Of a stretch of DNA of 64,000 nucleotides, positions 50,618 through 64,000 are shown piece after piece; position 1 is the first letter of the stretch, and every line of letters starts with the position of its first letter. The position numbers and the translations under genes were made by a program. The stretch covers positions 722,872 to 786,871 of the forward strand of contig CP038118.1 in NCBI GenBank assembly GCA_004519485.1, in the 5' to 3' direction. Under the pieces are notes generated by a model. That model was not told the origin of the DNA. It searched no databases and worked only from the letters and a program-made list of their open reading frames with translations. The stretch is from Nannochloropsis oceanica. Taxonomy: Eukaryota; Sar; Eustigmatophyceae; Eustigmatales; Monodopsidaceae.

Positions 50618-53600
50618 ATGGGCACACCGTCAAGGAAGTACCGCGGCATATGTCTCTGCCTAATATATTGTTTGACACGGTCGAACGCGTTGTGGTACCC
50701 AAGCAGAAAAAATGGTGGATTGAAAACCTTCACTATTATCTCCACGGAGGCAAAGAATCACGAAATAAGGTAAGCAGCATAGAAGAAAAGGACATAATCC
50801 CTGGTAAACCTAACATTCATCATCACCACAGCCGAAAACTTGACGGTCAAACAGGCGACACGGGTGCTACGGGCACGACGGGTGCTACGGGCGCTACTGG
50901 CGCAACAGGCACGACGGGTGCTACGGGTGTTACGGGTGCTACAGGTTCGACTGGTGCAACGGGTGCTACGGGCATAACAGGCGCTACGGGTGCTACAGGT
51001 TCGACTGGTGCTACAGGTACTACGGGTGCTACGGGGGCTACGGGGGCAACAGGGGCTACTGGTATTACAGGTGCTACAGGTGCTACGGGTGCTGCGGGTG
51101 CTACGGGTGCTACTGGCATTACAGGTGCTACGGGCGTTACAGGTTCGACTGGTGCTACGGGCACAACGGGCGCTGCGGGCACGACGGGTGCTACGGGTGC
51201 TACGGGAGCTACAGGTTCGACTGGCGCTAGGGGTGCTACGGGCATAACAGGCGCTACGGGTGCTACAGGTTCAACTGGTGCTACAGGTGCTACGGGTGAT
51301 ACGGGGGCTACGGGGGCAACAGGGGCTACTGGTATTACTGGTGCTACAGGTGCTACGGGTGCTACGGGTGCTACTGGCATTACAGGTGCTACGGGCGCTA
51401 TAGGTTCGACTGGTGCTACGGGCACGACGGGCGCTACGGGTACTACGGGGGCTACGGGTGCTACGGGTGCTACGGGTGCTACGGGTGCTACGGGGGCAAC
51501 AGGGGCTACAGGTGCTACTGGTATTACGGGCACGACTGGTGCTACAGGTGCTACGGGTGCTACGGGGGCTACGGGGGCAACAGGGGCTACTGGTATTACA
51601 GGTGCTACAGGTGCTACGGGTGCTACGGGTGCTACGGGTGCTACGGGTGCTACGGGCGCTACGGGTGCTACGGGTGCTACGGGTGCTACGGGTGCTACGG
51701 GCGCTACGGGTGCTACAGGTGCTACGGGTGCTACGGGCACGACTGGTGCTACGGGCGCTACAGGTGCTACGGGTGCTACGGGCACGACGGGCGCTACGGG
51801 TGCTACGGGTGCTACGGGCGCGACTGGTGCAACGGGTGCGACTGGCATAACAGGCGCTACGGGGACTACAGGTTCGACTGGTGCTACAGGTGCTACGGGT
51901 GCTACGGGGGCTACGGGGGCAACAGGGGCTACTGGTATTACAGGTGCTACAGGTGCTACGGGTGCTACGGGTGCTCCGGGTGCTACTGGCATTACAGGTG
52001 CTACGGGTGCTACGGGCACGACGGGCGCTACGGGGGCTACGGGTGCTACGGGTGCTACGGGTGCTACTGGCGGGACTGGTTCTACGGGCGCTACAGGTGC
52101 TACGGGTGCTACGGGCATGACGGGTGCTACGGGTGCTACGGGTGTTACGGGTGCTACGGGTGCTACGGGTGCTACAGGCACGACGGGTGTTACGGGCGCT
52201 ACAGGTGCTACGGGTGCTACGGGCATGACGGGTGTTACGGGCGCCACAGGTGCTACGGGTGCTACGGGCACGACGGGCGCTACAGGTGCTACGGGTGCTA
52301 CGGGTGCGACGGGCACGACGGGTGCTACGGGTGCTACGGGCGCTACGGGTGCTACGGGGACTACAGGTTCGACTGGTGCTACAGGTGCTACGGGTGCTAC
52401 GGGGGCTACGGGGGCAACAGGGGCTACTGGTATTACAGGTGCTACAGGTGCTACGGGCACGACGGGCGCTACGGGTGCTACGGGTGCTACGGGCGCGACT
52501 GGTGCAACGGGTGCGAGTGGCATAACAGGCGCTACGGGTGCTACAGGTTCAACTGGTGCCACAGGTTCGACTGGTGCTACGGGTGCTACGGGTGCTACGG
52601 GTGCTACGGGTGCTACTGGCATTACAGGTGCTACGGGTGCTACGGGTGCTACGGGCGCTACGGGGGCAACAGGGGCTACTGGTATTACTGGTGCTACAGG
52701 TGCTACGGGTGCTACGGGTGCTACGGGTGCTACTGGCATTACAGGTGCTACGGGTGCTACGGGCACGACGGGCGCTACGGGCGCTACGGGCACGACGGGC
52801 GCTACAGGTGCTACGGGTGCTACGGGCGCGACTGGTGCAACGGGTGCGAGTGGCATAACAGGCGCTACGGGTGCTACAGGTTCAACTGGTGCCACAGGTT
52901 CGACTGGTGCTACGGGTGCTACGGGCATGACGGGTGCTACGGGTGCTACGGGTGCTACGGGTGCTACGGGCACGACGGGCGCTACGGGTGCTATGGGTGC
53001 TACGGGTGCTACGGGCACGACGGGTGTTACGGGCGCTACAGGTGCTACGGGTGCTACGGGCGCTACAGGTGCTACGGGTGCTACGGGCATGACGGGTGTT
53101 ACGGGCGCTACAGGTGCTACGGGTGCTACGGGCACGACGGGCGCTACAGGTGCTACGGGTGCTACGGGTGCGACGGGCACGACGGGTGCTACGGGTGCTA
53201 CGGGCGCTACTGGTGCTACAGGTTCGACTGGTGCTACGGGCGCTACGGGTGCTACAGGTGTTACGGGCGCTACGGGCGCGACTGGTGCAACGGGTGCGAG
53301 TGGCATAACAGGCGCTACGGGGGCTACAGGTTCAACTGGTGCCACAGGTTCGACTGGTGCTACGGGTGCTACGGGCATGACGGGTGCTACGGGTGCTACG
53401 GGCACGACGGGCGCTACGGGTGCTACGGGTGCTACGGGCGCGACTGGTTCAACGGGTGCGACTGGCATAACAGGCGCTACGGGGACTACAGGTTCGACTG
53501 GTGCTACGGGCGCTACGGGTGCTACGGGGGCTACGGGGGCAACAGGGGCTACTGGTATTACAGGTTCTACAGGTGCTACGGGTGCTACGGGTGCTACGGG

Positions 53601-62600: not shown

Positions 62601-64000
62601 TGCTACGGGCGCTACGGGTGCTACGGGGGCTACGGGCGCGACTGGTGCAACGGGTGCGACTGGCATAACAGGCGCTACGGGGGCTACAGGTTCGACTGGT
62701 GCTACAGGTGCTACGGGTGCTACGGGGGCTACGGGGGCAACAGGGGCTACAGGTGCTACGGGCACGACGGGCGCTACGGGTGCTACGGGTGCTACTGGCG
62801 CGACTGGTGCAACGGGTGCGACTGGCATAACAGGCGCTACGGGGGCTACAGGTTCGACTGGTGCTACAGGTGCTACGGGTGCTACGGGCACGACTGGTGC
62901 TACGGGTGCTACTGGTATTACGGGGGCTACGGGTGCTACAGGTTCGACTGGTGCTACAGGTGCTACGGGTGCTACGGGCACGACTGGTGCTACGGGTGCT
63001 ACTGGTATTACGGGGGCTACGGGGGCTACAGGTTCGACTGGTGCTACAGGTGCTACGGGTGCTACGGGGGCTACGGGCGCGACTGGTGCAACGGGTGCGA
63101 CTGGCATAACAGGCGCTACGGGGGCTACAGGTTCGACTGGTGCTACAGGTGCTACGGGGGCTACGGGCACGACTGGTGCTACGGGTGCTACTGGTATTAC
63201 GGGGGCTACGGGGGCTACAGGTTCGACTGGTGCTACAGGTGCTACGGGTGCTACGGGAGCTACGGGGGCAACAGGGGCTACAGGTGCTACGGGCACGACG
63301 GGCGCTACGGGAGCTACGGGGGCTACGGGTGCGACTGGTGCAACGGGTGCGACTGGCATAACAGGCGCTACGGGTGCTACAGGTTCGACTGGTGCTACGG
63401 GTGCTACGGGTGCTACGGGTGCTACGGGCGCTACGGGCACGACTGGTGCTACGGGCGCTACGGGTGCTACGGGTGCTACGGGCACGACGGGCGCTACGGG
63501 TGCTACGGGTGCTACGGGCGCGACTGGTGCAACGGGTGCGACTGGCATAACAGGCGCTACGGGGGCTACAGGTTCGACTGGTGCTACAGGTGCTACGGGT
63601 GCTACGGGCACGACTGGTGCTACGGGTGCTACGGGGGCTACGGGCGCAACAGGTGCAACGGGTGCGACTGGCATAACAGGCGCTACGGGGGCTACAGGTT
63701 CGACTGGTGCTACAGGTGCTACGGGTGCTACGGGCACGACTGGTGCTACGGGTGCTACTGGTATTACGGGGGCTACGGGTGCTACAGGTTCGACTGGTGC
63801 TACAGGTGCTACGGGTGCTACGGGCACGACTGGTGCTACGGGTGCTACTGGTATTACGGGGGCTACGGGGGCTACAGGTTCGACTGGTGCTACAGGTGCT
63901 ACGGGTGCTACGGGGGCTACGGGCGCGACTGGTGCAACGGGTGCGACTGGCATAACAGGCGCTACGGGGGCTACAGGTTCGACTGGTGCTACAGGTGCTA
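50618..64000 (+). CDS. Giant secreted collagen-like Gly-X-Thr protein, 3' end outside the window
   Basis: Preferred model: exon 50618-50769, intron 50770-50831 (GTAAGC donor, CCTAAC branch-like motif, CACAG acceptor), exon from 50832 through the right edge. It starts [20 protein letters not shown], a basic n-region, hydrophobic core and small residues (SNA) at a plausible signal cleavage site. Collagen-like triplets begin at residue ~56 ([10 protein letters not shown]) and continue without a stop for at least 1,461 triplets. Y is almost always Thr; X is mostly Ala, then Thr, Ser, Ile, Val, Met. Rare Y exceptions are Ser, Ala, Arg and Met. There is almost no Pro and no Lys, so stability could not rest on hydroxyproline. 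Without splicing, another frame is open from an ATG at 50536 with a 103-residue hydrophilic leader. Bacterial and viral Gly-X-Thr proteins are O-glycosylated on Thr. Function here is inferred. Confidence 0.8.
50770..50831 (+). other. Proposed 62-nt intron in the collagen-like gene
   Basis: AAG/GTAAGC at the 5' side, ACCTAACATTC about 22 nt before CACCACAG at the 3' side. Size and motifs match introns of the glycan genes in this window. Removing it joins a signal-peptide-like leader to the repeats in phase (AG + C = Ser). It has no stop in the repeat frame, so an unspliced message would also be translatable. Confidence 0.6.
50845..64000 (+). repeat. 9-bp based minisatellite encoding (Gly-X-Thr)n with long-range duplications
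   Basis: The unit is GG(T/C/G) NNN AC(G/A/T). Above it lie longer modules, the commonest containing GGTGCGACTGGCATAACAGG followed by CGCTACGGGGGCTACAGGTT. Rare variants date duplications: GCTACC at 55411 and 55888 (477 bp apart), GCTAGA at 53827 and 54232 (405 bp), and matching blocks 765 bp apart (57398/58163) and 1,179 bp apart (61169/62348, 61682/62861, 61961/63140). All distances are multiples of nine. Confidence 0.92.

Follow-up and report, generated by a model that had tools for sequence, protein, structure and literature searches.

A predicted giant Gly-X-Thr collagen-like protein and neighbouring glycosyltransferase genes near a chromosome end of Nannochloropsis oceanica

Organization of the locus

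The stretch of DNA analysed here (the window, 64,000 nucleotides of contig CP038118.1, hereafter C20) comes from the eustigmatophyte alga Nannochloropsis oceanica and, in a reading for which the scales appear evenly balanced, contains the greater part of a gene encoding a secreted collagen-like protein of giant size (Table 1). The spliced model, with two short predicted introns of matching phase, gives one intact chain of 5,727 aa; a TTAGGG telomere lies 23 kb beyond the end of the gene. The ATG at 50536, with which the program-made open reading frame begins, is unlikely to be the true start. An exon beginning at ATG 50618, the left coordinate in the preliminary description, joins the repeat array through a phase-matched GT..AG intron, and the 25 codons between ATG 50618 and the nearest in-frame stop on its upstream side contain no other in-frame ATG. 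Inspected by eye, the N-terminus has a basic n-region, a hydrophobic core (hydropathy of 1.51 over residues 11-25, 15-residue window) and a plausible cleavage site after SNA, and a signal sequence is plausible there. The C-terminus that follows the array is Cys-rich with two CX3C motifs. It matches no Pfam family over the cut-off (best 13.5 bits vs 25), neither a COLFI C-propeptide of the fibrillar animal collagens nor a BclA-C/C1q-like domain being found by Pfam in the spliced C-terminus, and has no convincing relative in the PDB (best E 0.68); in its own genome it matches only itself.

Table 1. Features of the collagen-like gene and its neighbours (window positions unless marked C20)
Feature	Position	Strand	Remarks
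Exon 1	50618..50769	+	152 nt; start codon, signal-peptide-like N-terminus; phase fits exon 2
Intron 1	50770..50831	+	62 nt, GTAAGC...CACAG; predicted from sequence
Exon 2	50832..64000, on to C20:790599 (window-equivalent 67728)	+	predicted
Gly-X-Thr array	50845..64000, on to window-equivalent 67665	+	triplet count and Pfam Collagen match
Intron 2	C20:790600-790725	+	predicted
Exon 3 with stop	C20:790726-790860	+	predicted
GT25 glycosyltransferase	39329..40513; exons 40513-40341, 40270-39911, 39833-39329	-	345 aa, predicted splicing, frame intact
HtrL/YibB-like protein, candidate glycosyltransferase	38156..39184	+	N-terminal hydrophobic segment; 26.2 bits vs cut-off 24.1
WbsX-type glycosyltransferase	27649..29754	-	701 aa; 87% identical copy ~12 kb from C30 collagen-like gene
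Fringe-like glycosyltransferase	4009..5073	-	354 aa; 46 kb from array; membership in system uncertain
ORF with N-terminal hydrophobic segment (by eye)	8671..9255	+	relative ~2 kb from C30 collagen-like gene

The Gly-X-Thr array and its paralogues

The unbroken plus-strand Gly-X-Thr frame reported in the preliminary description is borne out: counting from 50845, 1,461 Gly-X-Y triplets follow one another up to the window edge without a stop, 1,447 of them with Thr at Y, and Pro is nearly absent. When the assembly is read past the window edge, the array closes after 1,869 uninterrupted triplets (5,607 residues) and is followed by the Cys-rich C-terminus. Thr occupies Y in 1,846 triplets, in keeping with the more than a thousand potential O-glycosylation sites proposed earlier; the remaining 23 Y residues are not Thr, while no triplet lacks Gly and no register slip of 3 or 6 bases occurs. 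The X position is mainly Ala, charged residues are almost absent (a single Lys in the whole predicted helix), and Pro is found in only five of the 1,869 triplets. Together with a score of 1,891 bits for Pfam PF01391 (collagen; cut-off 27.2) on the window frame, this upholds the earlier characterization as giant, almost proline-free and collagen-like. In the assembly the frame stays open past the window edge and, rather than running into satellite DNA, passes from the repeat to unique sequence that carries a splice donor and another exon; at the 3' edge of the array Gly-X-Y is kept where Thr and DNA similarity fade.

Long Gly-X-Thr arrays were found in three regions of the genome, C20, C30 and C17, in a scan that scored 150 of 240 candidates. 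The C30 gene combines a VWA/DUF1194 region with 213 triplets (210 with Thr) and a 121-aa C-terminal domain, which is common to the C17 gene with its 762 triplets (610 with Thr). Candidates on C9 (of Gly-Ala-Ala type) and C3 (33 triplets, 15 with Thr) were set aside because they are of the Gly-X-Thr kind barely or not at all. A bacterial origin of the shared C-terminal domain was also set aside, as scanning prokaryote genomes with two patterns confirmed no case and no match was found among 3,403 length-limited protein candidates; so was a viral origin, viral contigs yielding a single 16-residue match to this domain and none to an alignment of the window GT25 protein. The host of the gene is very probably the alga rather than a virus or a spore former.

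Neighbouring glycosyltransferase genes and subtelomeric linkage

The GT25 gene lies ~10 kb upstream of the collagen-like gene and encodes a single-domain protein with an N-terminal hydrophobic, membrane-like segment in type II arrangement (PF01755, 43.7 bits vs cut-off 24). The PDB protein that it matches best is procollagen galactosyltransferase 1, the human COLGALT1 of entries 9u7j, 9evj, 9u7h and 8zgc (E 1.9e-5 over residues 76-254); the matching region includes GELGC-LSH and EDD stretches and corresponds to chain residues 303-472 of 9u7j. COLGALT1 is larger (520-653 aa in the PDB) and is matched only in its later part, and the two-domain COLGALT architecture is not present in the 345-aa algal protein. 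On animal collagen, the acceptor of GT25 enzymes is hydroxylysine; the predicted algal helix offers a single Lys, a point that counts against the role proposed below for the algal enzyme. A protein search with the algal sequence gave three matches, two of them ~70% identical to it across 74-78% of its length.

Genome-wide, all ten matches to this GT25 subfamily lie on C20 or C30 and merge to four places, each no more than 35 kb from a gene with a long Gly-X-Thr array; the C17 region contains no GT25 match, and the other Pfam GT25 matches, two of five, lie on C6, away from known collagen-like genes. Some C30 copies of GT25 are read across stops. YibB-like homologues occur at all three long Gly-X-Thr loci, with four of five places within 35 kb of such a gene; the C30 copy scores below the cut-off (16.3 bits) and is likewise read across stops. 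The corresponding fractions are 2/11 for WbsX and 0/6 for Fringe. The ORF at 8671..9255 shares 67% identity over 193 aa with its relative near the C30 collagen-like gene.

These nearby genes fit the idea that the array is glycosylated on Thr. They could also belong to generic subtelomeric glycan islands with no role in modifying the collagen-like protein, the linkage stemming from duplication of chromosome ends, which we regard as a serious though minority prospect. C20 ends in a telomere and has homologous blocks and transposon-like DNA in common with C30, so the linkages in these two regions are not independent, and C6 and C4 carry WbsX, GT25 or Fringe matches without a detected collagen-like gene among the candidates scored. 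Against such islands, the window GT25 subfamily was detected nowhere else in the genome, and the YibB-like family also occurs 23 kb from the collagen-like frame of C17. Oxygenases of prolyl-hydroxylase type (PF13640; eight matches at seven loci) were absent within 35 kb, and also within 60 kb, of the three collagen-like genes, and with so few Pro triplets in the array, proline hydroxylation was left out of the explanation.

Constraint within the repeat

Among the 9-mer repeat types, 49 are rare (three copies or fewer), and 39 of these differ by one step from a common type. None of the 39 changes Gly, where 22% would be expected without selection (P ~6e-5), whereas ten change Thr (also 22% expected), 14 change X and 15 are silent; Gly is also kept in all types outside this test (ten rare and ten of mid-frequency). 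The visible constraint in the array thus falls on Gly and not on Thr, which may be present through amplification. This pattern hints at a Gly-dependent triple helix, and it is the reverse of what would be expected of a secreted, non-helical, mucin-like Thr-glycoprotein, a stiff single-chain bottle brush in which Gly is a mere small spacer. Such a brush would suit the dominance of Thr at Y, the scarcity of the Pro and charged residues that would lend stability to a triple helix, and the neighbouring glycosyltransferase genes; it is nonetheless unlikely given that Y departs from Thr where Gly never varies, and that the Gly register is unbroken in the C17 and C30 arrays as well.

More improbable still is that the array is a subtelomeric minisatellite, an unexpressed gene held open by composition, or a product of inflated assembly. 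The array has undergone recent, long-range tandem expansion, with 450-bp blocks at least 97% identical at 27 spacings and a longest exact repeat of 725 bp, and an assembly made from PacBio reads with Canu and Hi-C scaffolding, as the accessible text of the genome paper describes it (PMC6610115), may miscount such units. One minus-strand frame, of Val-Ala-Pro type, is open across all 5,607 codons too, and its third positions coincide with those of the plus frame; a codon-position selection test for the coding strand was dropped for this reason, and flanking exons and paralogues were used to decide the strand. The minus frame, however, is confined to the array, running from edge to edge, 13 and 81 stops interrupt the two remaining plus frames but none the Gly frame, intact flanking exons are modelled on both sides, and Gly is constrained among the rare variants. 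Lastly, once glycosylated, Gly-Ala-Thr is similar to the Ala-Ala-Thr found in antifreeze glycoproteins from fish, but an ice- or surface-binding repeat of this kind, favoured by repeat composition alone, is highly improbable, as a structural rod better accounts for the length of the array, its strict Gly register, the Cys-rich end of the chain and the nearby gene for a procollagen-type enzyme.

A proposed glycosylated collagen and its implications

Judged from sequence, there is about an even chance that the gene encodes a secreted, ~1.6 µm Thr-glycosylated collagen served by dedicated glycosyltransferases. Three chains would be registered in the ER by the disulphide-prone Cys-rich C-terminus, the neighbouring type II GT25 enzyme would place galactose-like or other sugars on Y-position Thr, and the YibB/WbsX-type enzymes encoded nearby would lengthen them, sugar-bearing Thr taking the place of hydroxyproline in stabilising the triple helix. 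The product would be a stiff rod, densely decorated with sugars and located in the wall or outer coat, its ~1.6 µm being of the order of half a Nannochloropsis cell diameter. The array may enlarge through in-register duplication in the subtelomere, in which case rod length should differ between strains. A wider proposal, which we advance tentatively and consider doubtful, is that this stramenopile alga possesses a collagen-glycosylation system of its own, with an origin separate from the collagens of animals and giant viruses, in which a dedicated GT25/YibB-type set, inherited as a subtelomeric module, modifies micrometre-long Gly-X-Thr helices that use sugar-bearing Thr in place of hydroxyproline and form a protein layer not previously recognised in the wall of Nannochloropsis.

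If expressed, a predicted 1.6 µm helix with almost no Pro to hydroxylate would allow a test of whether a triple helix nearly free of Pro can be kept together by glycosylated Thr alone. It would also suggest a protein as a possible constituent of the tough wall that makes oil extraction from Nannochloropsis difficult, and offer a non-animal collagen source in a free-living, transformable organism, together with candidate collagen-sugar enzymes. Literature searches combining Nannochloropsis with collagen-like proteins listed only papers that appeared off-topic, those for Nannochloropsis with collagen triple helix and for collagen-like Gly-X-Thr with glycosylation found none, and that for collagen-like Gly-X-Y with microalga found only a giant-virus review; the genome paper (PMC6610115) does not use the word collagen in the accessible part of its main text.

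Comparison with known collagens

Classical collagens are rich in Pro and hydroxyproline at X and Y, which the algal array is not. Annelid cuticle collagens were reportedly treated by Mann et al. in 1996 for Riftia pachyptila. According to the accessible text of two papers, these collagens form a triple helix of great length whose stability is linked to Thr bearing sugar (galactose) (PMC11766948, PMC10141479). Thr likewise dominates Y in the algal protein, though the annelid proteins are of animal origin with other domains, whereas here the host is an alga, X is mainly Ala and the sugar on Thr is putative. F-BclA of Bacillus spores has, as far as the available preprint text describes it, a Thr/Ser-rich, putatively glycosylated collagen stalk and a glycosyltransferase gene nearby (PMC11952670), a similar pairing; its stalk spans residues 19-720, compared with 5,607 residues here, and Pfam finds no C1q/TNF-like C-terminus of the BclA kind in the algal protein. 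Mimivirus also pairs non-animal, low-Pro collagen-like proteins with a glycosyltransferase, the GLT25D1-like L230, for which the accessible text gives a hydroxylysine acceptor and a hydroxylase domain (PMC9614988), unlike the single-domain GT25 and one-Lys array described here. In a length comparison covering 67 database proteins, the algal chain would, if expressed, far exceed all others in the length of its uninterrupted Gly-X-Thr run, the next best having 335 Thr triplets and the longest other Gly-X-Y run comprising 393.

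Gene model and coding strand

The preliminary description proposed an unbroken plus-strand Gly-X-Y frame from 50845 to 64000 with Thr at nearly every Y position, and both points hold, as the window contains 1,461 triplets and no stop, with Thr in Y in 1,447 (X is Ala in 1,127). The frame runs on beyond the window edge within contig C20, which carries the window, and the array terminates after 1,869 triplets at C20:790536, 1,846 of them with Thr in Y. A predicted 62-nt GT..AG intron links exon 1 to the array in agreeing phases; past the 3' end of the array come LCLATCVANYNAFYNIC, then a GTAAGT donor, a predicted 126-nt intron and a last exon that, on the predicted splicing, holds a second CX3C pair. 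The predicted spliced product comprises 5,727 residues (455 kDa), 5,298 of which are Thr, Gly or Ala, and the gene looks intact from its sequence. The contig terminates in TTAGGG repeats, and the gene therefore ends ~23 kb from the telomere. GC content is 47.2% in the flank up to 50600; the published assembly account gives 54.01% genome-wide, and counts 30 pseudochromosomes for the nucleus plus one each for plastid and mitochondrion (PMC6610115).

Coordinates of the window, the first exon and further Gly-rich repeats
Feature	Position	Strand	Remark
Window	C20:722872-786871		Genome 29.26 Mb, 32 contigs
Exon 1, giant collagen-like gene	ATG 50618 to 50769	+	Predicted
Gly-rich repeat	C9 1045993-1046508	-	Gly-Ala-Ala type, in 466-aa frame
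Gly-rich repeat	C3 83405-83900	+	165-aa frame with 33 Gly-X-Y triplets

Across the array, the two other plus frames contain 13 and 81 stops versus 0 in the Gly frame. A Val-Ala-Pro frame on the minus strand is likewise open but confined to the array, and because these two open frames share silent sites, codon-position variation cannot pick the strand. The predicted flanking exons and the paralogues do decide it, at the level of sequence, in favour of the plus-strand Gly frame.

Paralogues

Pfam Collagen matches besides C20 occur on at least contigs C17, C30, C9 and C3, a lower bound given that 150 of 240 candidates were scored. The C17 gene has 762 triplets (610 with Thr in Y), much of its array being a 108-bp unit in 45 exact copies, while that of C30 encodes a VWA/DUF1194 domain, 213 triplets (210 with Thr) and, at the C-terminus, a domain of 121 aa that shares 75% identity with its C17 counterpart. 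Beyond this genome, the domain found no relative among the limited-length proteins searched, in the PDB (best E 0.31) or in the prokaryote genomes scanned; its one match among viral contigs, 16 residues at 81% identity (IMGVR_UViG_3300011444_000093, 2687-2734, L048), is probably due to chance. The C20 C-terminus is unlike that of C17 and C30 and has no convincing relative in its own genome, Pfam or the PDB. At C30 312139-345524, YibB-like and GT25 copies lie in tandem after the VWA/DUF1194-collagen frame; some of these copies are incomplete or have to be read through stops.

Linkage to glycosyltransferase genes

The window codes for GT25, YibB-like, WbsX and Fringe-like proteins, each with a hydrophobic N-terminal stretch. 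The start of the gene for the GT25 protein (345 aa, three predicted exons) and the first collagen-like exon are ~10 kb apart. The protein's top four matches among solved structures are all procollagen galactosyltransferase 1 (E 1.9e-5 to 2.6e-5), the remaining three being weaker (6xi1, E 0.0075; two "glycosyltransferase family 25" chains, 0.2 and 0.42). All 10 genome matches of its subfamily lie at C20 or C30, where some C30 copies are partial or read across a stop; the YibB-like family occurs at C20, C30 (two places), C17 and as a fragment at the tip of C1.

Taken together, the zones up to 35 kb from the long Gly-X-Thr genes of C20, C17 and C30 make up 0.81% of the genome; they contain 4/4 merged places of the GT25 subfamily, 4/5 YibB-like places, 3/5 Pfam GT25 and 2/11 WbsX, and none of the seven PF13640 or six Fringe places. 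Naive probabilities overstate this proximity, because tandem or segmental copies depend on one another and any family that was first noticed in the window lies close as a result of how it was chosen. The locations of GT25 and PF13640 were not yet known when these two families were picked, and linkage was seen for one of them. The glycosyltransferase genes may belong instead to generic glycan islands at chromosome ends. Subterminal WbsX, GT25 and Fringe matches in duplicated pairs occur at C6 ~1127000-1240000, and a subterminal WbsX triplet at C4 1470847-1526578; no collagen-like gene was detected at either among the 150 of 240 Pfam Collagen candidates scored.

Selection, size and proposed mechanism

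The array contains 84 distinct 9-mers: 25 are common, with at least 10 copies each, 49 are rare, with no more than 3, and 10 lie in between. Among the 39 rare 9-mers one step from a common one (the other 10 were left out), changes number 0 at Gly, 14 at X, 10 at Thr and 15 silent, against 22%, 22%, 22% and 33% expected if single changes fell at random. The chance of 0/39 at Gly is 5.6e-5, and the Thr changes are at chance level. Gly is thus under constraint and Thr, at the level of rare 9-mers, is not. This pattern speaks for a triple helix rather than a mucin, and makes it less likely that every single Thr is important. Blocks at least 97% identical over 450 bp, at spacings including 702, 765, 846, 927, 1071 and 1692 bp, show that the array expanded recently and in register.

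When the window part was searched against 5.8 billion proteins (1,445 length-limited candidates scored, 67 returned), no returned protein had more than 335 Gly-X-Thr triplets; among the 67, unbroken Gly-X-Y runs other than the C20 array reached at most 393 triplets. A triple helix rises 0.286 nm per residue, and the predicted C20 helix would measure 1.6 µm. Thr-rich collagen-like proteins are already known as a kind, to which the predicted C20 product belongs; it is unusual in how large it is, in its host and in being encoded close to a procollagen-galactosyltransferase-like gene.

Beyond the gene model, we infer helix, sugar and acceptor by analogy. Published accounts tie helix stability in Riftia cuticle collagen to glycosylated Thr (PMC11766948, PMC10141479), and describe in Mimivirus a GLT25D1-like enzyme, acting on hydroxylysine, alongside low-Pro collagen-like proteins (PMC9614988). 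On these analogies, a sugar on Thr would stabilise a Gly-X-Thr helix that has almost no Pro and whose gene has a GT25 neighbour.

Other features

A 502-aa protein at 30616-32124 (+), without a Pfam match and with an N-terminal hydrophobic stretch by eye, contains GDSLMRQTF, which we take to resemble the GDS motif of TBL/PC-esterase-type polysaccharide O-acetyltransferases. The inverted copies at 6595-8194 and 21700-24998 (translated pieces 87-100% identical; one ORF with a hAT-type dimerisation match just below cut-off) read as transposon remains. AGTCGT-rich, apparently inverted stretches (by eye) at L010:9240-10000 to L011:1-2700 surround a 410-aa ORF (L011:330-1562) that has no Pfam match and contains a GDRIRG stretch resembling fucosyltransferases; the unit may be transposon-like or represent a captured glycosyltransferase.
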